From assembly GCA_015179125.1 (NCBI GenBank), contig WHVA01000027.1, forward strand, positions 310,001-374,000: a stretch of 64,000 bases of DNA. The letters run 5' to 3'. The notes under the pieces are model-generated. The model ran no database searches. It had not been told where the DNA came from and saw nothing but the letters and a program-made list of their open reading frames with translations. Positions 4,926-64,000 of the stretch are shown piece by piece; within the stretch, counting starts at the first letter, position 1, and every line of letters begins with the position of its first letter. The DNA comes from Gautieria morchelliformis. Lineage: Eukaryota > Basidiomycota > Agaricomycetes > Gomphales > Gomphaceae. A program made the translations under genes and the position numbers.

Positions 4926-6578
4926 TGTTAAAAGTTGCCAACATTGGAAATAGTTTCTGTATGTGGTGCAGATTCAGACTCGAATATAGAGTCGAATCAA
5001 GTTCAGTTGGGAGAGTGAGGGAAATGATGCTGTGCATAGTGATGGGCAGGGCCTGGCCCAGGCCATGGGCCAAGCCAGGCCAAAGCCGTTGGTGCATCCA
5101 GCTCCATGGCCTGGCTCAGGTTTTGACAAGCCAAAGCCAAGCCAGGAAGCCATGGCCTGGCGAGCACCTAAATACAGGATCTTTGGTCACCAAAAACAAT
5201 ATGTTTGCTCTGATACTGGTGTGTATATAAGTTTTTTTCATGATATGTAGTGTGGCCCAGCAATATTATAAGGGCACTTTCAGCTGTGCAGGACAGGTGA
5301 GAGCCTATTAGGCTCACTATTATGTCACAGGGCTAATGCTACAGCCAGGCTGCCATCCCATAATGACCTTTCATGCAGCCACATGACAGATTCATGATTC
5401 ACTCATGGAGGAATTCAGCGATCTGAGCATCAAGGAGATGGGAACTTATGAAACAATTGACCCTCACATGGAGGATGACCCATCTGAGGCAAACATAGGA
5501 ATCGAGTGTGATGAAATCCTTCGGGCAGGGAACCTGCGAGCGCTGTATATGGTGGTGTAATTGCTGAACCCCACCATGGTGAGTCATTCTTCCAGTTGTT
5601 TCAGTGGTTCATGCCTTCTCAGGACTCAAAAAATATGCTTTGTAGTGGCGGTATCCACTGGTGCGTGTCCGAGGGCATGACACCGCTGGAGGGAGAGCAA
5701 GATTAGTCTGAGTCAGGGTTCGAGTTGGATATTGATTGCAATGCGGGTCTCAATGACATCATCTATGATAAGGAAGAGTTTTGTGCGCTACATACAAAGT
5801 AAGAATGATGTCTGTGTCTACGACACACTTCAAGCTATTCCCCACCAACAGGGCAAGGCCAAGCCAGAGCTGAGCAAGACCAAGTCCCAAAGACCTGGCT
5901 CAGGATTTAGCAAGCCAAAGCCCGCGCAAGCCAGGCCAAAGCGGCATTCAGGCCAAGCCAGGCCATGCCCATCACTAGCTGCGCAGGATATATGCGCCTC
6001 AAAATAATCAACAAGACAAGATAGAGTGCTTCCGAGCACTGTAGGGTAACTGATAAGTGAGTTTGATTGACTGACTAGTCTCTGTGTACATTTGAGCTAT
6101 TTATCTGGCTAAGGTACGTGAGCCTACAGAGTTAGATGTTCCGGATCATGTGAGGATGAACATGTGAACTGAAGCTCAGAGAGGAATGTGCCGGCTGTTG
6201 CGGTAGTTACTAACCTATTACTTGATTGTGTTATGTATATAGAATCGATATCAGAAAGAAATGTGATGATGGATTGGGGGAGAAGAAGAGAAAGACAGTT
6301 CTGTGTATGATGTGCCGGTCATCACAGCACTCCTCGGATCAGAGCCTCTAGGGTCTCTGTATCGAGTCAGGGACAGGTCCGCGGATTGATGGAATAGGGT
6401 AGGAAGGACTATGTGAATGCGTGTGTGCTTAGAAAGGTGTGCGTGGGCGCGGGGGAGGGCTCGAATAGGTGTAGGGTGTGTATGCCACCTGGTGTGGATA
6501 CTGGTGAGTGCACATATGCGGTGTAGCGTCTTTTGGTGGGTGAGTGTGTTTGTGTGGACTTTCAATACATTTATAACA
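4926..6578. mobile_element. solo LTR, family B, interrupted by a hAT-like element
   Basis: The element runs from TGTTA (4926) to TAACA (6578) and is flanked by CAGAA (4921-4925) and TAGAA (6579-6583), a near-perfect 5-bp target duplication. Without the 949 bp of inserted hAT-like DNA and its duplication it is about 704 bp. It shares several blocks with the family-B copies at 43820-44448 and 55170-55985, for example the paired ACTCG...GAGTCGAATC block near 4978 and 55213, and GTGAGTTTGATT near 6057 and 43932. No internal region is present, so it is a solo LTR and an old fossil. Confidence 0.6.
5037..5977. mobile_element. non-autonomous hAT-like DNA transposon, 941 bp
   Basis: The ends read TAGTGATGGGC...GCCCATCACTA, an 11-bp perfect terminal inverted repeat that extends imperfectly into GGCCTGGC. 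It is flanked by GCTGTGCA (5029-5036) and GCTGCGCA (5978-5985), an 8-bp target duplication with one difference, as hAT elements make. Subterminal DNA is full of CAAGCCAGGCCAAAGCC-like repeats at both ends, also typical of hAT. The interior has no transposase; a 51-codon plus-strand frame near 5405-5560 has no known motif. It inserted into a family-B solo LTR and so is younger than it. Confidence 0.75.
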
Positions 6579-12159: not shown

Positions 12160-12483
12160 CTGTGAGGACACATGGGGGACATGCTATGCACAGTATACTT
12201 GAGGGCCACACTATGCGTGAGGACACGCTACGTGCGAGGACACGCTACATGTGAGGACATGCTACGTGTGAGGACATGCTATCTGTGAGGACACACTATG
12301 TGTGAGGACATGCTACGGGTGAGGACATGCTATGGGTGAGGACACGCTATGTGTGAGGACATGGTATCTACTGAGGTTATTGGCAGTTCCTATGTGTGAG
12401 GCCATGCTACGTGTGAAGACATGCTATGTGTGAGGACGCGCTATGTGTGAGGACATGCTATCTACTGAGGTTATTAGCAGTTC
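12160..12483. repeat. minisatellite, unit about 20 bp
   Basis: Some fourteen diverged tandem copies of GTGTGAGGACATGCTATGTG (variants ACGCTACGTG, ATGCTACGGG and so on). A larger unit ending in TATCTACTGAGGTTATT.GCAGTTC occurs twice (near 12365 and 12460), so part of the array was duplicated as a block. No coding sense. Confidence 0.85.
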
Positions 12484-23069: not shown

Positions 23070-23440
23070 TGTCAGGGGACAGCCCGGTGGTTTCTTTTAT
23101 TTCCTTTATCTTCTGCCTTCCTCCTCCTTCACCTACTTGTTCTCACTTGTTCGTCCCTTCTCTTATTTCTGACATGTTCCCCCACCCATGTTCATGTCCA
23201 GTAGTCTGGCTTCCTCAGTAGCTGTATAGTTAGTTGCTTAGGTAAGGGGATCCTCACCCTATTCTCTTTGGATCCCCCTTACCAGGTGCGTAGGTCGCTT
23301 ATGTAGTTACTGAGTAGTGTCTTATATAACTTTGGATCCCCCTTACCAGTACTCTGTGTGACTCTCCACGAGCGGTAAGGTTGCCCTTACAGCAGAATAG
23401 GGTCACCCCATCGAGGACCGACGGTACGGTTGCGTGATTT
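23070..23440 (+). mobile_element. 5' LTR and leader of a chromodomain-type gypsy element, otherwise missing
   Basis: The LTR is 23070-23391 (TGTCAGGGGACA...GTTGCCCTTACA, 322 bp), a diverged relative of the gypsy-1/gypsy-2 LTR. It is followed by GCAGAATAGGG...GAGGACCGACGG (23392-23434), which matches the leader that follows the gypsy-1 5' LTR, so this is a truncated element and not a solo LTR. No target duplication (CCCCC against GCAGA), as expected. Parts: TATA at about 23225, hairpin arms 23241-23253 and 23270-23283, second right arm 23334-23347, and a PBS-like stretch 23394-23403 complementary to 23256-23265. Confidence 0.75.
23394..23403 (+). promoter_or_regulatory. putative self-priming primer-binding site
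   Basis: AGAATAGGGT, two bases after the LTR, is the exact reverse complement of ACCCTATTCT at 23256-23265, which lies just downstream of a TATA box and so near the expected RNA 5' end. The same arrangement with different bases is found in gypsy-1 and gypsy-2. Self-priming is known for Tf1/sushi relatives; its use here is inferred. Confidence 0.6.
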
Positions 23441-27222: not shown

Positions 27223-27702
27223 TGTAAGGGCAACCCTGGCTAGTCGTGGAGATCACACTACCACACAACTGACAAGGGGAAATCCAAAGTATGTATAAAT
27301 GAACAGAGCATACAAGAGAGGGGGTTCTCACCTGACAAGGGGAAATCCAAAGAGAAAAGTCTAAGGACCCCCAATGTCAGCGAGCCCGTATTATACTACG
27401 CTGCGCAGCCAGGGACAACACTTGGCACCCGCCATCAACCCTGCATCCCCCTGACCCTTGATCGACCCTTGATGCCACCTATTATGCGAGTCGCTTGATT
27501 TCCGACACTGTTCCGGGGCGGAAGTCGGAAATTGGAGTGGAACTGGCAAGGCGAACGGAACTGGTGGAAGTTCTCCCAGAAGCGGAATCGTTCCCGAAAG
27601 CGGATGCGGAGATGGAATCGGAACCGGAAGCGGAGTCGGAAATGGAGTCGGAACTGGGTGTGGTGTCGGAACTGGAAATGGAAAACAGGGTGTCCCCTGA
27701 CA
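27223..27702 (-). repeat. gypsy-1 3' LTR
   Basis: 480 bp, TG...CA. On the minus strand it has TATAATA at 27395-27389, hairpin arms (27380-27365 with 27348-27332), a second copy of the right arm (27285-27269), and a 170-bp stretch (27530-27700) packed with CGGAA/TTCCG. The polypurine tract AGAGGGGGGTGA adjoins it at 27703. Confidence 0.93.
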
Positions 27703-30166: not shown

Positions 30167-30678
30167 TGTTGGTGCATTTATGCTCCTGCACCAAAATCAA
30201 GCATAATATATCCAATTTGTTGTGTGGCCTTCCAATTTCTTCTCACATTGTTCTTGTATTATGCATCCATTTCTCTGGTTATTTTCGAAATTTTCCACTC
30301 ATTCCTTATCTCTCTATTTCATCTTGTTATTCCTACTTTCACAAGCGGCTGCACCCAGCGGAGTCTGAAATGACTTCGACGCGCGAGCTCTTGGGCGCTA
30401 AAGGGCCGGGTAGTAGTACATGCGCAGTGGAACACATTTCCCCCTCTCTCAGTGACCACTAAATTCACTGAGAGAGGCAAGTAAATTAGTCTAGTAGTCT
30501 TTGCATTTATTGACCTAGAAATGCTCTGTAGTGAATTGATTTCTAGGTAGTGTATAATATATTTAGAGTGACCACTAAATTCACTGAGAGAGTGAATTGA
30601 TTTCTAGTGAATTGATTTCTAGTCTATTCTTTTGAATAACAAGTCCATACCTACTGCCTATAATTCCTGTCCTCTACA
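30167..30678 (+). repeat. copia-3 5' LTR
   Basis: 512 bp, TGTTGGTGCATTTATGC...CCTCTACA. The right half holds repeated GTGAATTGATTTCTAG and GTGACCACTAAATTCACTGA motifs, the latter twice (near 30457 and 30570), each able to form a hairpin (AGTGA/TCACT). Confidence 0.93.
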
Positions 30679-30692
30679 GGGTTATGGGCCCC
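30679..30692 (+). promoter_or_regulatory. copia-3 primer-binding site overlapping the start codon
   Basis: GGGTTATGGGCCCC directly follows the LTR and is complementary to the anticodon arm of initiator tRNA-Met. The ATG at 30684 that opens the long frame lies inside it. Confidence 0.8.
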
Positions 30693-33600
30693 GGAGACAC
30701 TTCTGAGAAGCTGTTGGGTGTTGAGAAGCTTGCTACTGATGGAAGTAATTGGCCATTGTGGCGAGCCACTCTCATCAGCTATTTCGAGTCCAAAAATTTG
30801 CTCAAGCATGTAGAAGGGAGAGTCACTCGACCTCCTGATCCTCCAGTCATGCCCCCAGGCCATATTCTAACAGAAGCTGAGGAAACTCAGATGGATAAGG
30901 CCGAGGAGAAGCTGGAGAGATACCTTGCTAGAGAAGGACAAGCCAAGACCCAAATCATCGTCTCAGTGTCAGAGTCATTAGCCCTGATGCTACAGAAGCA
31001 GAAGACAGCAAAAGAGACTTGGGATGCACTGGTCAATGAAATGACCAAAAAGCCCAAGATGGTCCTCACCAGCCTGCAGAGACAACTCCGCAGTATGAGA
31101 TGTCCTGAGGATGGAGACTTGAGAGATCACTTGGACAAGGCCCAAGACCTATATGCTCGTCTTAATGAGATGGGAGCTAGAGTTTCTGAAGAAGAATTCA
31201 TGGACATAATCCTTGCGTCACTTCCACCATCCTATGAGGCAGTCATGAATGCCCTTACAACTTCGCTTGAAGAATGCGGGATGCCATTGGTCCCTGATAA
31301 TATTATTAGGGTACTAAAGGCTCAGTATGACAGGAAGAAAACACTCCCGCAAGAAGAGCAGGTGTTTATTGGTTCATCTACTAAGAAGGACCAGAAGGGG
31401 CAGAAGGCGCATGTATGCACCAACTGCAAAAAGCCTGGACATTCCATCGAAAATTGCTGGGCTAAAGGAGGTGGTAAAGAAGGTCAAGGACCACGTCAGA
31501 AGAAGAAAGCCAAAGGCAAGAAGAAGAAGAAGGGTAAAGCAAAAGCGAATGTTGCCGAAGAAGAGTCTACTTCTGAGGAAAGTGGTGATGGGCATCTTGC
31601 CTTCACCAATTTTGACGAGTGCTCTAATTTCAATTTGAGCACATCCTCAGGAGTTATAGTCATACTCGACACCGGAACGACATCGCATATGACTCCTCAC
31701 AAAAATTTATTGAGGAACTACTGTCAATTCTCACAGCCGAGGACTATCCGAGCAGCCAACAAAGGTACCTTTGATGCCTTCGGCTCAGGACTGCTCGTAT
31801 TATCCAATAAGGTTGGAGATAGAACAGTAGAAGTCACGTTGCAAGATACATACTATGCACCCAAAATTGCTGCTACCCTCGTCTCGATCGGTCGGTGCGA
31901 TGATGCTGGCTACGACATTCGACTCGGTGGCCAGAAATGCACAATATCTAATGCTGCTGGAAAAGTATTGATGCAAGCACCGAAAGTCAATGGCTTATAT
32001 CGACTAGACCTCCAGTCACCAAGTGCTCAAGCCCATATGTGTTTATCTGCCATGGAAATTCATCAAAAGATGGGGCACATCTCGCAGAAGTCCCTACAAC
32101 ATCTATTAAATCATGGCATGATATTGGGCATTGAACTGAGCTCCACAGGCGATAGAATTGTCTGTGATGCGTGTATTCAGGCCAAGATTGCGCGCAAACC
32201 TCTTCCTCGAGAACCCAGAGACCGAACATCAAAATTCGGTGACAGAATTTATTCTGATGTCTGGGGACCTGCAAGACACCTCACGATCGATAAGAAGTCA
32301 TATTATGTCTCCTTTATCGATGACTACTCAAGAGAATCGGTGATCTATCTCATGGCGAACAAATCAGAAGCATTCTCAAAGTACAAGCTCTACGAGGCTT
32401 TAATGCTTCGACAGAGAAATGTGCACATCAAGGCACTTGTTTCTGATCGAGGGGGCGAGTATACGAGCTCTGAATTCGAACAGCATCTAGCCAAACAAGG
32501 CACGAAGCATCAGTTGACGGTACACGACACACCAGAGTCCAATGGTGTTGCGGAACGCCTGAACCGAACCCTCACTGAGAGAACTCGTGCCATGCTGCTA
32601 GAATCAAGCCTTCCTAAGATATTATGGGGCTATGCGATACAGCATGCCAATTATCTTAGGAACAGGACGCATACAAGAGCTCTACCAGATAAAACGCCCT
32701 ACGAGATGATTCACCATGAAAAACCGAATCTCAAAGACATTCACGCGTGGGGAACTGAAATTTACGTTAAAATCACTCAGAGAGATAAATTGGCAGCTCG
32801 TGCCAAAAGAGCTCGGTGGATAGGAATTTCTGCGCAGAGCCATGGTCATTATGTTTATTGGCCTGACTCGCACAAAGTTTCTGTCGAGCGGAACGTTGTC
32901 TTTGATTCAGAAATGAAGAAGGGAAAGGTCCCAATCATTTCTATTGAGGAATCCAAGCTACCTACGTCTAAAGAAGAGAAGAAAGCCATTCCGGCATCAG
33001 TGCCTGTGCCCGGTCGCTTAGTCAGCGAAGAGGCAAAGATCGAAGAAATTGATGAAAGTGCACCGGAAGAATATCTTGAAAAGCTGCAACCTATTCAGGG
33101 AGTTGATGACAGACCTAGAGAAGCTGAACCGATAAGGAGAAGCGAAAGGATCCGTCAACAACAAGTGCAGCCGGCCCCATCAGGTCCCGTGACAAGATCT
33201 CAAACTCAGAGACAAACTGGCGCACATATGACTACGCTAGCTTACGAGGACGTTGAGGACCATGAAGAAGTTTTATTCGACCAAGAATTATCCTCCGAGA
33301 TTGATGGCATCAGTAGCTATGAGTGTGCCATCAGTGCGTTTCTAACCGACGGTCAAAACAACATTAAGGCGCCGGATTTGAGTCAAATTGAACCTAGCAA
33401 TGCAGACGAAGCTCTGAATAATCCTATGTGGAAGAAATCAATGGACAAAGAGTATGAGGCCCTAATCGACAAGGGAGTGTGGGAAAGAACCAAACCACCT
33501 CCTGGAGCCAACATTGTCGGCAACAAATGGGTCTACCTTTGGAAGCGTAATCCAGAAGGGAAACCAATAGTACCTAAATCGAGAATGGTCGCCCAAGGCT

Positions 33601-34928
33601 TCACGCAGAAGTTTGGAATCGACTATGATGAGACATACTCACCTGTTGCTCGGTTATCCTCCCTACGGATCATATGCGCCATTGCTGCTAGGAATGACTG
33701 GCCTATTCATCAAATGGACGTGGACTATGCATACCTCAATGCTAAGTTGCCCGAACCTATTTACATGAAGCAGCCGTATGGATATGAGTCAGGAGACAAA
33801 GGCGAAGTGCTACTTTTGAAGAAAGCACTCTACGGCCTCAAGCAATCTGGAAGAGAATGGTACAAACGTCTAAGTGGTGAATTCCACAAGTTAGGATTCA
33901 CTACGTCAGCCACAGACGGGGCTGTATTTTATAGACGTGGCGGAAAGGGGCATGTGATCATTGCAACAGCTGTGGACGACCTTACCATCACAGCTGAGAA
34001 TCAATCAGTCCTGGACGAAGTCAAACGAGATCTTGCTCAGGTCTTCAGTATGAAAGATCTAGGCGAGATTCATTGGCTATTGAATCTCAAAATCGAAAGA
34101 GACTGGCAGAAGAAGACCATTGCAATTTCACAACCTGCATACATCGAGAAGATCATCAAAAAATTTAATCTCGAAGATGCAAAGACTTATGCTACGCCTC
34201 TTGATCCAGCCGTAAAATTATCTAAAGACCAATGTCCTTCTACAGAGAGAGGCAAGAAAGCCATGTCGAAGTTTCCATACAGGCAAGCTATAGGATCACT
34301 GATGTGGGCGGCTGTAGCCACTCGACCTGACATTGCATTTGCGGTGTCATTACTCTCGCAATTCCTTGAAAATCCAGGTGGCACACACTGGAATGCAGTC
34401 AAACGTGTCTTCAAATATTTGAAAGGCACGAAGCATTACAAACTCACACTTGGAAGAAATCAAGACGGCTTGATGGGGTATTCAGATGCGGATTGGGGTT
34501 CACAGAGTCATAGGCGTTCGTATTCGGCATACTTATTTCAGATTGATGGAGGCACTGTTTCATGGAGTTGCCAGAAACAGTCGATAGTAGCCCTCTCATC
34601 AACTGAAGCCGAATTCGTCGCCCTGACCCATGCGGGCAAAGAGGCTCTTTGGATGCGCCATTTTATTTCTGAAATATTCCAACCACTGAACAGACCCATC
34701 CAAGTTTATTCAGACAATCAATCAGCCATTGCCATCACGTATGGCACCCAACAACACACGAGAACCAAGCATTTCGACATCAGATTATATTTCCTTCGAG
34801 ATATAATCAAAAATCAACAAGCCAAGCTCGTTTATTTGCCAACCGAACAAATGTTGGCAGATATCCTCACTAAAGGACTTCCTAGTCCTAGAGTGAAGAT
34901 TCTCAACGAGCAAATCGGAATATATTAA
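30684..34928 (+). CDS. copia-3 Gag-Pol polyprotein, 1414 residues
   Basis: Order typical of Ty1/copia: Gag (WPLWRATLISYFESKNLLKH near residue 25), zinc knuckle CTNCKKPGHSIENC (about 244-257) followed by a Lys-rich tract, protease ILDTGTTSHM (about 326), gag-pre-integrase block (about 458), integrase core (IYSDVWGP about 520, VSDRGGEYTSSEF, ESNGVAERLNRTLTERTRAM), reverse transcriptase (MVAQGFTQKFGIDYDETYSP, MDVDYAYLNA about 1010, AVDDLTI about 1095) and RNase H (YSDADWGS about 1265, ALSSTEAEFVALTH). Proteins of this kind copy RNA into DNA inside particles and integrate it. The frame is uninterrupted and, as far as can be read, whole. A single Gag-Pol frame without a shift is usual for copia. 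Confidence 0.93.
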   Translation: MGPGDTSEKLLGVEKLATDGSNWPLWRATLISYFESKNLLKHVEGRVTRPPDPPVMPPGHILTEAEETQMDKAEEKLERYLAREGQAKTQIIVSVSESLALMLQKQKTAKETWDALVNEMTKKPKMVLTSLQRQLRSMRCPEDGDLRDHLDKAQDLYARLNEMGARVSEEEFMDIILASLPPSYEAVMNALTTSLEECGMPLVPDNIIRVLKAQYDRKKTLPQEEQVFIGSSTKKDQKGQKAHVCTNCKKPGHSIENCWAKGGGKEGQGPRQKKKAKGKKKKKGKAKANVAEEESTSEESGDGHLAFTNFDECSNFNLSTSSGVIVILDTGTTSHMTPHKNLLRNYCQFSQPRTIRAANKGTFDAFGSGLLVLSNKVGDRTVEVTLQDTYYAPKIAATLVSIGRCDDAGYDIRLGGQKCTISNAAGKVLMQAPKVNGLYRLDLQSPSAQAHMCLSAMEIHQKMGHISQKSLQHLLNHGMILGIELSSTGDRIVCDACIQAKIARKPLPREPRDRTSKFGDRIYSDVWGPARHLTIDKKSYYVSFIDDYSRESVIYLMANKSEAFSKYKLYEALMLRQRNVHIKALVSDRGGEYTSSEFEQHLAKQGTKHQLTVHDTPESNGVAERLNRTLTERTRAMLLESSLPKILWGYAIQHANYLRNRTHTRALPDKTPYEMIHHEKPNLKDIHAWGTEIYVKITQRDKLAARAKRARWIGISAQSHGHYVYWPDSHKVSVERNVVFDSEMKKGKVPIISIEESKLPTSKEEKKAIPASVPVPGRLVSEEAKIEEIDESAPEEYLEKLQPIQGVDDRPREAEPIRRSERIRQQQVQPAPSGPVTRSQTQRQTGAHMTTLAYEDVEDHEEVLFDQELSSEIDGISSYECAISAFLTDGQNNIKAPDLSQIEPSNADEALNNPMWKKSMDKEYEALIDKGVWERTKPPPGANIVGNKWVYLWKRNPEGKPIVPKSRMVAQGFTQKFGIDYDETYSPVARLSSLRIICAIAARNDWPIHQMDVDYAYLNAKLPEPIYMKQPYGYESGDKGEVLLLKKALYGLKQSGREWYKRLSGEFHKLGFTTSATDGAVFYRRGGKGHVIIATAVDDLTITAENQSVLDEVKRDLAQVFSMKDLGEIHWLLNLKIERDWQKKTIAISQPAYIEKIIKKFNLEDAKTYATPLDPAVKLSKDQCPSTERGKKAMSKFPYRQAIGSLMWAAVATRPDIAFAVSLLSQFLENPGGTHWNAVKRVFKYLKGTKHYKLTLGRNQDGLMGYSDADWGSQSHRRSYSAYLFQIDGGTVSWSCQKQSIVALSSTEAEFVALTHAGKEALWMRHFISEIFQPLNRPIQVYSDNQSAIAITYGTQQHTRTKHFDIRLYFLRDIIKNQQAKLVYLPTEQMLADILTKGLPSPRVKILNEQIGIY

Positions 34929-34941
34929 GCTTGAGGGGGCG

Positions 34942-35454
34942 TGTTGGGTGCATTTATGCTCCTGCACCAAAATCAAGCATAATATATCCAATTTGTTGTG
35001 TGGCCTTCCAATTTCTTCTCACATTGTTCTTGTATTATGCATCCATTTCTCTGGTTATTTTCGAAATTTTCCACTCATTCCTTATCTCTCTATTTCATCT
35101 TGTTATTCCTACTTTCACAAGCGGCTGCACCCAGCGGAGTCTGAAATGACTTCGACGCGCGAGCTCTTGGGCGCTAAAGGGCCGGGTAGTAGTACATGCG
35201 CAGTGGAACACATTTCCCCCTCTCTCAGTGACCACTAAATTCACTGAGAGAGGCAAGTAAATTAGTCTAGTAGTCTTTGCATTTATTGACCTAGAAATGC
35301 TCTGTAGTGAATTGATTTCTAGGTAGTGTATAATATATTTAGAGTGACCACTAAATTCACTGAGAGAGTGAATTGATTTCTAGTGAATTGATTTCTAGTC
35401 TATTCTTTTGAATAACAAGTCCATACCTACTGCCTATAATTCCTGTCCTCTACA
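34942..35454 (+). repeat. copia-3 3' LTR
   Basis: 513 bp, preceded by the polypurine tract and followed by the CCCTT target duplication; practically identical to the 5' LTR. Confidence 0.93.
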
Positions 35455-38250: not shown

Positions 38251-38260
38251 AGACTTTTCT
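38251..38260 (-). promoter_or_regulatory. gypsy-1 putative self-priming primer-binding site
   Basis: AGAAAAGTCT on the minus strand, two bases inside the 5' LTR. It is exactly complementary to AGACTTTTCT, found in the LTR about 33 bases downstream of TATAATA (27362-27353 in the 3' LTR). Gypsy-2 has the same pair (50315-50306). Confidence 0.6.
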
Positions 38261-38262
38261 GC

Positions 38263-38742
38263 TGTAAGGGCAACCCTGGCTAGTCGTGGAGATCACACTA
38301 CCACACAACTGACAAGGGGAAATCCAAAGTATGTATAAATGAACAGAGCATACAAGAGAGGGGGTTCTCACCTGACAAGGGGAAATCCAAAGAGAAAAGT
38401 CTAGGGACCCCCAATGTCAGCGAGCCCGTATTATACTACGCTGCGCAGCCAGGGACAACACTTGGCACCCGCCATCAACCCTGCATCCCCCTGACCCTTG
38501 ATCGACCCTTGATGCCACCTATTATGCGAGTCGCTTGATTTCCGACACTGTTCCGGGGCGGAAGTCGGAAATTGGAGTGGAACTGGCAAGGCGAACGGAA
38601 CTGGTGGAAGTTCTCCCAGAAGCGGAATCGTTCCCGAAAGCGGATGCGGAGATGGAATCGGAACCGGAAGCGGAGTCGGAAATGGAGTCGGAACTGGGTG
38701 TGGTGTCGGAACTGGAAATGGAAAACAGGGTGTCCCCTGACA
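38263..38742 (-). repeat. gypsy-1 5' LTR
   Basis: 480 bp, identical to the 3' LTR except at one position. On its inner side, GC and then AGAAAAGTCT (minus strand, 38260-38251) follow. Confidence 0.93.
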
Positions 38743-38906
38743 GATGCAGGGTTGATGGAGGGTGCCAAGTGTTGTCCCTGGCTGCGCAGCGTAGTATAAT
38801 ACGGGCTCGCTGACATTGGGGGTCCTTAGAGACTTTTCTCTTTGGATTTCCCCTTGTCAGTTGTGTGGTAGTGTGATCTCCACAACCAGCCAGGGTTGCC
38901 CTTACA
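38743..38906 (+). mobile_element. inverted, partial gypsy LTR next to gypsy-1
   Basis: This is the first half of the same LTR in the opposite orientation, ending GGTTGCCCTTACA at 38906, so that with the 5' LTR of gypsy-1 it forms an inverted pair. It carries only one copy of the right hairpin arm. It abuts copia-2 in the middle of that element's gag (VYINQTMSAF). Confidence 0.85.
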
Positions 38907-44562: not shown

Positions 44563-45025
44563 TGTAAGGGCAACCCTGGCTAGTTGTGGAGATCACACTA
44601 CCACACAACTGACAAGGGGAAATCCAAAGTCTGTATAAATGAACAGAGCATACAAGAGAGGGGATTCTCACCTGACAAGGGGAAATCCAAAGAGAAAAGT
44701 CTAAGGACCCCCAATGTCAGCGAGCCCGTATTATACTACGCTGCGCAGCCAGGGACAACACTTGGCACCCGCCATCAACCCTGCACCTCCCTGACCCTTG
44801 ATCGACCCTTGATGTCACCTATTACGCGAGTCGCTTGATTTCCGACACTGTTCCGAGGGTGGAACTCGGAAATTGGAGTGGAACTGGGAAGGCGAACAGA
44901 ACTGGTGGAAGTTCTCCCAGAAGCGGAATCATTTCCGAGAGCGGAGGCGGAGATGGAATCGGAATCGGAAGCGTCTTCGGAAATGGAGGCGGAACTGGAA
45001 ATGGAAAACAGGGTGTCCCCTGACA
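44563..45025 (-). repeat. gypsy-2 3' LTR
   Basis: 463 bp; about 17 bp shorter than the gypsy-1 LTR, mainly in the CGGAA-rich part. It has the same TATA, hairpin arms and second right arm. Confidence 0.93.
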
Positions 45026-50130: not shown

Positions 50131-50317
50131 GTCGGAAGGAGAAATGTGGGACGGGATTTCCGGGGTTGGGAGCTCGATGTAAGAAGAAGGGCTGTCGTAC
50201 GCTGTGTGTGCGGAAGAGGTTGCGATCTCCGAGTCGCTGTCTCCGATTCCGAACGCACCTATGGCGGCTGCGACACGCAGTACGACCGCCGGTCCTCTAT
50301 GGGAGAGACTTTTCTGC

Positions 50318-50780
50318 TGTAAGGGCAACCCTGGCTAGTTGTGGAGATCACACTACCACACAACTGACAAGGGGAAATCCAAAGTCTGTATAAATGAACA
50401 GAGCATACAAGAGAGGGGATTCTCACCTGACAAGGGGAAATCCAAAGAGAAAAGTCTAAGGACCCCCAATGTCAGCGAGCCCGTATTATACTACGCTGCG
50501 CAGCCAGGGACAACACTTGGCACCCGCCATCAACCCTGCACCTCCCTGACCCTTGATCGACCCTTGATGTCACCTATTACGCGAGTCGCTTGATTTCCGA
50601 CACTGTTCCGAGGGTGGAACTCGGAAATTGGAGTGGAACTGGGAAGGCGAACAGAACCGGTGGAAGTTCTCCCAGAAGCGGAATCATTTCCGAGAGCGGA
50701 GGCGGAGATGGAATCGGAATCGGAAGCGTCTTCGGAAATGGAGGCGGAACTGGAAATGGAAAACAGGGTGTCCCCTGACA
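50318..50780 (-). repeat. gypsy-2 5' LTR
   Basis: 463 bp, one difference from the 3' LTR; followed inward by GC and the AGAAAAGTCT primer-binding stretch. Confidence 0.93.
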
Positions 50781-63092: not shown

Positions 63093-64000
63093 CTACTTCT
63101 CCTTTTCTCTTAGGACTTTTCTGTCTTCTTGCCTTTCTAAAGAGATATCAACAGGACAATCAAGGTCTTTTATGACTCCAACTAGCTTACTGAGATAATT
63201 GGAATCATTTTCAACATTTTTCATTCCTAACCTAGTACATTGTTCAATCATCTTTTCTTCTATGACCTTCCATCCTACTAGAGTTCTGAAGTACATATCC
63301 AATATCCTTTTAAAGAATTGTAGGTATATCAATTTGTTTCTAAGCTCATAACCAATCTTTTCAACTTATCAAGATCCTCCTTATATGTACCTGTCAGGGG
63401 ACCACCAGTTCTTTCCTTTCTTTCCTGTTAATCCCCTTCCTTGTATCTCTTCATCATATCCCTTTCATTGCATCCTTCCCTTATTCCTTCCTGCACCACT
63501 GCCGCTCGTGGGATTTGCTTATGTCATTTTGTAGCAGCTATATAGTTCATCGCTGAGGTAAGGAGATCCTCACTCTGTTCTCTTTGGATCTCCTCTACCT
63601 CAGGTATGCCATCCATGTATTTACCTGCTCACTGACTTATATCACTTTGTATCTCCTCTACCTCAGCCGCTCTAGGGAGTAGAGCACCAGGTAGAGTCGC
63701 CCTTCCAGTACCCCTGTAAATATCAAACGATCCATATACTTGTACTATTTTTACTACCTCCACTTTTTTACCATAACTCTCACTATCCCAAGAACTTCTA
63801 GGTTTTTGGAGGATTTAAATTTTATATTTAATATGTCTCCAATATTCCCCTATAGCAGCTATACCATATACACTTTCATAATTGGTATCTAGGAATAGTA
63901 CTGTCACCTGATTTATCAGTTGCTTGTGAGTATCCTTGAAGATATTTTCACGTTCTTCTGTAGTTTTAACACTTCTTTTTATTTCCACTATTAAAAATGT
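63093..64000 (-). pseudogene. AT-rich coding remnant of unknown family, split by a solo LTR
   Basis: On the minus strand the right part reads TFLIVEIKRSVKTTEERENI, NQVTVLFLDTNYESVYGIAA, IGEYWRHIKYKI and KVEVVKIVQVYGSFDIYRG up to the LTR. Left of the LTR it continues TYKEDLDKLKRLVMSLETN, then YLQFFKRILDMYFRTLVGWK, VIEEKMIEQCTRLGMKN and SNYLSKLVGVIKD (63093-63332). The coherence of these stretches says they were one gene, running off the window edge. There are several stops and frameshifts, and its strong AT bias against GC-rich neighbours would fit C-to-T decay. I do not recognise the family. Confidence 0.45.
63392..63707 (+). mobile_element. solo LTR of a third chromodomain-gypsy-like family, 316 bp
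   Basis: TGTCAGGGGACC...GTCGCCCTTCCA with a perfect 5-bp duplication GTACC (63387-63391 and 63708-63712). It is clearly related in layout to the LTRs at 23070 and 27223: TATATAG at 63539, hairpin arms 63555-63569 and 63586-63601 with a 16-base loop, second right arm 63649-63664. Confidence 0.82.

Follow-up and report, generated by a model that had tools for sequence, protein, structure and literature searches.

Probable self-primer pairs in gypsy elements, and an intron-like repeat in the R region of gypsy and copia LTR retrotransposons, of Gautieria morchelliformis

The window, which is the whole 64,000-nucleotide stretch of Gautieria morchelliformis DNA that was analysed, contains an LTR of family f1, two gypsy elements (gypsy-1 and gypsy-2), a solo LTR of family f3, and a copia element, c1 (30167–35454), nested in gypsy-1. 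The pol regions of gypsy-1 and gypsy-2 encode RVT_1, RNase H, Integrase_H2C2, SH3_Tf2-1, and Chromo domains, with Chromo (PF00385) at the pol end (5e-16 and 3.7e-15, respectively); for f3, no pol was recognized by eye among the ORFs of locus L092. Copia c1 has one long ORF of 1414 residues, which encodes copia-type gag and RVT_2, and a target repeat, CCCTT. A 17-nt tandem minisatellite lies at 12211–12483. The gypsy-type features are as follows, where primer, primer-binding site (PBS), exon, and intron are names for predicted roles.

23070–23391 (+), f1 LTR (TGTCAGGGGACA...CCCTTACA)
23241–23253 (+), f1 U3 arm, between TATA and primer, reverse-complementary to exon 1 (GGTAAGGGGATCC)
23256–23265 (+), f1 self-primer ACCCTATTCT
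23266–23285 (+), f1 exon-1 copy 1, directly 3' of the primer, ending in CAG and followed by GTGCGT
23286–23349 (+), f1 predicted R intron, 64 nt, GTGCGT...TACCAG, putatively spliced
23330–23349 (+), f1 copy 2, the last 20 nt of the intron and the same in sequence as copy 1
23394–23403 (+), f1 PBS AGAATAGGGT
38263–38742 (-), gypsy-1 5' LTR
38405–38420 (-), gypsy-1 U3 arm, 5' LTR
38393–38402 (-), gypsy-1 self-primer AGACTTTTCT, 5' LTR
38372–38392 (-), gypsy-1 exon-1 copy 1, 5' LTR
38309–38371 (-), gypsy-1 predicted intron, 63 nt, GTGAGA...TGTCAG, with copy 2 as its last 21 nt (38309–38329)
38251–38260 (-), gypsy-1 PBS AGAAAAGTCT
27223–27702 (-), gypsy-1 3' LTR, with primer 27353–27362 and copy 1 27332–27352
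27269–27331 (-), gypsy-1 3' LTR predicted intron, with copy 2 27269–27289
50318–50780 (-), gypsy-2 5' LTR, with arm 50460–50475, primer 50448–50457, and copy 1 50427–50447
50364–50426 (-), gypsy-2 5' LTR predicted intron, with copy 2 50364–50384
50306–50315 (-), gypsy-2 PBS
44563–45025 (-), gypsy-2 3' LTR, with primer 44693–44702, copy 1 44672–44692, and copy 2 44609–44629
38743–38906 (+), 5'-truncated LTR piece with a single repeat copy and no intron, with primer 38830–38839 and copy 38840–38860
63392–63707 (+), f3 solo LTR, with arm 63555–63569, primer 63572–63581, and copy 1 63582–63603
63604–63666 (+), f3 solo LTR predicted intron, with copy 2 63645–63666 (1 mismatch)

The f1 primer and PBS are exact reverse complements, and because the LTR (...CCCTTACA) ends at 23391, the PBS starts 2 nt beyond it. 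The gypsy-1 primer in the 3' LTR (minus 27362–27353) pairs in the same way with the PBS at minus 38260–38251 and is also present in the 5' LTR (minus 38402–38393); gypsy-2 repeats the arrangement (primer minus 50457–50448, PBS minus 50315–50306), and in all three elements the PBS starts two bases 3' of the LTR. The earlier note had pointed to these pairs and to a TATA box about 30 bases ahead of the primer, and both were found in place, with 31 nt from TATA start to primer in f1 (23225) and 33 nt in gypsy-1 (minus 27395). The chance of a given 10-mer match within a 322-nt LTR is about 322/4^10, or 3e-4.

For a genome-wide comparison, 60 loci were taken with two PBS-side patterns, one with AGAA_AG fixed (30 of 756 matches used) and the other with AGAA followed by not A, any base, and G (30 of 48 matches used). 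A primer region was recognizable in 52 of the 60 loci, the other eight being truncated or rearranged as judged by eye, and primer and PBS paired at 10 of 10 positions in 42 of these 52, with imperfect pairing in the remaining 10. Eight different PBS sequences and 11 different primer sequences occur among the loci, in 14 distinct combinations. Over these combinations 126 of 140 positions form Watson-Crick pairs, as compared with a permutation mean of 102.2, and none of 20,000 permutations scored as high. The proposal that the bases differ between families while pairing is kept was thus borne out as compensatory change.

The third pair that had been predicted from the solo LTR at 63392 was also recovered: at other f3 LTRs of this genome the LTR is followed by AGAACAGAGT, and ACTCTGTTCT is the primer, present exactly in 14 of 20 f3 PBS loci (two are imperfect, and four have no primer region). 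The same kind of prediction from LTR primers, taken from L037 for f4, from L020, L041, and L016 for f6, and from a single copy, L069, for f5, gave 78 genome matches for the f4 PBS (AGAAAACTCT; control 0), 276 for the f6 PBS (AGATCAAG; control 0), and 0 for the f5 PBS. Among f4 PBS matches in contigs up to C242, the exon-1 motif lies 112–120 nt away in 12 of 23. The TATA start is 41–45 nt ahead of copy 1, or about 31–35 nt ahead of the primer, in eight of 10 lineages; f6 and f6b are the two of these 10 in which TATA is absent.

Self-priming has been described for fission yeast elements (PMC4600332 and PMC10085805, as excerpted). The elements here resemble the Tf1/sushi chromoviruses (Tf1, Tf2, Tj1, and Tosmo1-3) in the Chromo and SH3_Tf2-1 domains of gypsy-1 and gypsy-2, in having an LTR primer complementary to a PBS just beyond the LTR, and in the predicted position of the primer, close to where the RNA would begin. 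Together with the compensatory changes and the f3, f4, and f6 predictions, the domains support the Tf1/sushi-type self-priming that the earlier note had suggested; this interpretation stands, and at the level of sequence such priming of the gypsy elements appears well supported.

The larger feature of these LTRs, absent from the earlier note, is an intron-like repeat in R. In all 11 gypsy lineages tabulated, which were chosen by us and are each represented by one real copy (as also in the folding, pairing, colinearity, and c1 comparisons below), the 20–22 nt directly 3' of the self-primer are repeated 56–70 nt downstream. The two copies have 0–2 mismatches in 10 of the 11 lineages, the drifted one being g1b, where copy 2 has an indel, and the repeat sequence itself differs strongly between lineages (for example, CTTTGGATTTCCCCTTGTCAG, CTTTGGATCTCCTCTACCTCAG, and CTGAGGATATCCACTACACAG). 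When copies 1 and 2 were permuted among the lineages, none of 20,000 permutations matched as well as each lineage with its own copy. The left edge of the repeat coincides exactly with the primer end in nine of 11 lineages (g1b by eye), and the identity extends past that end by 1 nt in f1b and 3 nt in f5. Copy 2 accordingly begins, in the same nine lineages, exactly at the predicted primer cut, a start that fits the predicted RNase H cleavage after the primer.

The boundaries of the repeat carry splice-like motifs. The motif G[T/C]RNG is found after copy 1 in all 11 lineages, with the variants GTGAG, GTGCG, GTGTG, GTATG, and GCAAG, and after copy 2 in none of the 11; copy 2 ends in CAG, so that a GT or GC donor and an AG acceptor are at fixed places in all 11. 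With these two ends, the stretch resembles an intron of 56–70 nt inside R; a YTNAY-like branch-point motif is seen by eye but is variable. When the stretch is removed, R is colinear with the end of unspliced R at 67/67, 62/62, 65/65, 63/64, 53/53, and 98/99 positions in six gypsy lineages, in which the non-trivial part of each count is the repeat (20–22 nt in gypsy, 40–41 nt in copia c1, and 47 nt in the second copia family, c2) and the remainder is shared U5. Locus L036 and a second LTR in L067 represent other LTR families, in which this architecture is degenerate. A general scan for a repeat accompanied by an arm gave 69 hits at the top threshold against 51 in reversed sequence, a control nearly as high that is uninformative because reversal preserves both repeats and complementarity, and a scan anchored on the splice motifs gave 132 matches; those listed include minisatellites and a coding repeat.

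In copia c1 the arrangement is more elaborate, with two intron-like stretches in R.

30167–30678 (+), copia c1 5' LTR
30451–30476 (+), exon A1, beginning at the presumed cap site (TCAGT context)
30477–30531 (+), predicted intron 1 (P), 55 nt, GCAAGT...TTGAC...CTGTAG
30532–30546 (+), exon B1
30547–30607 (+), predicted intron 2, 61 nt, GTAGTG...TTCTAG, ending in A2 and B2
30567–30592 (+) and 30593–30607 (+), A2 and B2, fused, a spliced image of A1-P-B1
34942–35454 (+), copia c1 3' LTR, with A1 35227–35252, P 35253–35307, and B1 35308–35322
35323–35383 (+), 3' LTR predicted intron 2, with A2 35343–35368 and B2 35369–35383

R has the layout A1-P-B1-s-A2B2-U5, in which A2B2 corresponds to A1 and B1 fused directly, P being absent. 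When P and everything from GTAGTG through B2 are taken out, the window copy (30452–30679) matches the 3' end of R at 112 of 112 positions, and four other c1 loci give 97/97, 97/97, 91/91, and 92/92; c2 gives 54/56. The window copy also has an extra tandem B at 30608–30622. Across five c1 lineages, spliced A1 plus B1 differs from its own A2B2 at one position in total and from the A2B2 of other lineages at 1–6 positions each, and only one of the 120 possible orders, the true one, matches as well. Identity falls to 0.60 in P, as compared with at least 0.85 in the exons, and P retains GC[A/G]AGT, TTGAC, and GTAG in the five lineages (TTAAC in L069). The c1 introns end in TAG. The intron-2 donors (GTAGTG, GTAGTT, GTATTG, and GTACTG) have no G at position 5, nor do the c2 donors GTAAAG and GTATAC. 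The genome contains 2401 A1|P sites and 1537 A.B junctions. Among the junctions listed (contigs C1–C62), 50 of 59 have an A1|P donor 109–116 nt upstream, and of the 100 A1|P donors among the matches listed, 50 are followed by an exact A.B junction and 50 are not.

The copia PBS, GGTTATGGGCCC, resembles what we take to be a site for a half-tRNA primer. With such a PBS, the start of the copia repeat coincides with the presumed cap site, and that of the gypsy repeat with the presumed primer cut; in both superfamilies this is where the cDNA would end. Copia-type LTRs at minus 41623 and minus 63670 of the window have GGTTATGGGCCC and TATATAAA/TATATAAG near the LTR end; in these two families, which share the PBS type, no R repeat was seen by eye in the 330 nt before the PBS.

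The reading that we favor, and consider probably correct, is that the gypsy elements are self-primed Tf1/sushi-type elements with a spliced R, the intron being put back and copy 2 rewritten at each first-strand transfer. The pairs, the repeats and their boundaries, the splice-like motifs, the covariation, and the spliced image are visible in the sequences, and from them we infer the RNA 5' end, the splicing, the primer cleavage, the landing of the cDNA in strand transfer, and the role of the arm, as follows. (i) About the first 10 nt of the gypsy RNA would fold back onto the PBS two bases beyond the 5' LTR and, on being cut right after the primer, would prime minus-strand DNA. (ii) R would contain a small spliceosomal intron, and its 5' copy would be removed from the genomic RNA. 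(iii) The end of the strong-stop cDNA would then be the complement of exon 1, from cleavage site to donor, joined to the sequence after the acceptor, and the unspliced 3' LTR would contain this joined sequence too, since a repeat of exon 1 (copy 2) stands there just ahead of the acceptor. (iv) The cDNA would pair unbroken with copy 2, and synthesis would continue from there across the intron and then copy 1, so that each cycle would regenerate the intron and rewrite copy 2 from copy 1, which would explain why the two copies are alike while the families diverge. (v) The U3 arm, transcribed only at the RNA 3' end, would pair with copy 1 and leave copy 2 as a free landing site. In copia c1 the same scheme with two R introns would make the downstream copy the spliced form of the upstream copy. 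The wider statement, that two LTR superfamilies keep R introns by means of a spliced copy of the 5' end before the last acceptor, that transfer restores all of them, and that a U3 hairpin steers the cDNA, has in our judgment an even chance of being right.

The arm lies between TATA and primer and is complementary to exon 1 in the gypsy lineages. In a test of 10 lineages, from which f3b was excluded and in which f1b was taken from L056 (copy 1 ending in AAG) rather than from L054 as in the repeat comparison, the energy sum of each arm with its own exon 1 was -232.7 as compared with a permutation mean of -167.6, and none of 20,000 permutations was as good. Nine of the 10 arms beat all but 0–2 of 300 shuffles; the g1b arm was no better than shuffles (86 of 300). 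Such strong, covarying pairing would also be expected if, with self-priming real, the repeat and arm were RNA structure only and selection for pairing with the arm kept the copies alike without any splicing. In folded 3' LTR RNA, however, the arm pairs with copy 1 (13.3–16.8 expected pairs) and not with copy 2 (0–0.6) in six of six lineages, a result that fits a role in keeping copy 2 free. Also against a purely structural role are the GT/GC donor motifs, which occur only after copy 1, and the copia copy, which lacks exactly an intron-like stretch with conserved donor, branch-like, and acceptor motifs. We consider this alternative unlikely and the spliced R the better account of the repeat. 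Masking of the donor by the arm in the 3' LTR was discarded, since the folds show no measurably lower accessibility there: mean donor unpaired probabilities in 3' LTR and 5' RNA were 0.26/0.28, 0.33/0.37, 0.32/0.29, 0.21/0.54, 0.42/0.22, and 0.22/0.24. Of the duplexes that flank the PBS in Tf1/sushi elements (the 'pretzel'), the one tried, pairing of U5 with exon 1 with no U5 row for f6, was not supported (1747 of 20,000 permutations as good). A copia arm was dropped, as the arm-like CCTAGAAAT is not conserved by eye in L067 or L074.

Copy number in the LTRs varies. For gypsy-1, an exact one-copy pattern gave 195 matches as compared with 2073 for a pattern admitting both forms, and the one-copy form made up 12 of 100 among the matches listed. 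Among the first 100 one-copy LTRs listed, four pairs are at element spacing as judged by coordinates only (5648–5711, median 5680); 15 two-copy pairs in contigs C1–C113 are spaced at 5668–5781 (median 5747). Elements without the intron have therefore probably replicated, and the intron seems not to be essential and to be lost at times. The intronless pairs fit occasional landing on copy 1 and equally fit an intronless master that arose by deletion; pairs that mix the two forms are represented in C1–C113 by two candidates only, with spacings of 6266 and 4538 nt. One-copy LTRs were rejected as proof of splicing because DNA deletion between the repeats yields an identical product. A pattern for extra copies gave 11 matches, and eight examined correspond to seven distinct LTRs: one with four copies, four with three, and two that have the usual two copies and a sequence change ahead of copy 1. 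The gypsy-1 LTRs with three or four copies are at L061, L063, L065, L066, and L067; at the last three loci the introns within one LTR share variants absent from the others. Five LTRs (L055, L105, L078, L080, and L073) have homology that ends just upstream of the primer, without U3, and may be copies of spliced RNA; the intron is absent from three of these five, and the edges are not at the primer.

The one-copy and the rare three- and four-copy LTRs indicate that the repeat can slip or recombine, and the one-copy c1 LTRs (L069 and L040) retain P and so look like DNA deletions between repeats. These are the observations to be expected if the repeats were a DNA tandem repeat in which slippage and unequal exchange give LTRs of one, two, three, and four copies and homogenize the copies. 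Such a process does not predict a repeat edge at the primer end, as found in nine of 11 lineages (with g1b assessed by eye), or the confinement of P to the upstream c1 copy in five lineages whose flanking exons co-evolve. A tandem repeat as the whole explanation is accordingly improbable, and splicing of R followed by restoring strand transfer remains the preferred reading.

Splice donors in R are found in HTLV-1, BLV, and foamy viruses, which resemble the present elements in this respect but differ in that their acceptors are downstream and their RNA is packaged unspliced. According to excerpts of PMC12786077, spliceosomal introns in the LTR elements Ogre, EVADE, and Cer1 give subgenomic or protein-coding RNAs; the likeness is a predicted intron within an LTR element, and the difference, as far as those excerpts go, is that here the predicted donor and acceptor are both inside the R region of the LTR, so that the intron must survive strand transfer. 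These known introns lend some weight to a third alternative, in which splicing of the R introns would serve only the translation of mRNA, unspliced RNA would be packaged as the genome, and the repeat would be the relic of a single ancient spliced RNA that was reverse-transcribed. A relic would be expected to drift, whereas the copies resemble each other inside a lineage and differ between lineages, and we regard this alternative as very unlikely. Priming by tRNA with complementarity arising by chance, a reading in favor of which nothing was found, has next to no probability, given the covariation, the matches to predicted PBSs, and a PBS start that is not TGG, the start by which a tRNA-primed PBS is complementary to the tRNA 3' CCA end.

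The gypsy elements differ from the known Tf1/sushi elements in the intron-like stretch of R, with its exon repeat and covarying U3 arm, features unmentioned in the excerpts of PMC4600332 and PMC10085805. No description of an intron in an LTR or R with a spliced-image repeat was found among the open-access PMC papers listed for introns in LTRs or R regions, as judged by titles and abstract openings. In our view, the putative R intron with a spliced-image repeat, in gypsy and copia elements of one genome, is the real finding here.

An element that makes copies of itself by way of RNA is expected to lose its introns. If strand transfer could restore the intron by means of such a repeat, introns and retroelements would have a new mode of coexistence. 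The edge of the repeat would mark, from sequence alone, the cut site of the self-primer and the start of retrotransposon RNA, so that both may be tested from genomes. If the scheme is true, these elements carry a heritable, self-correcting intron while replicating through RNA.
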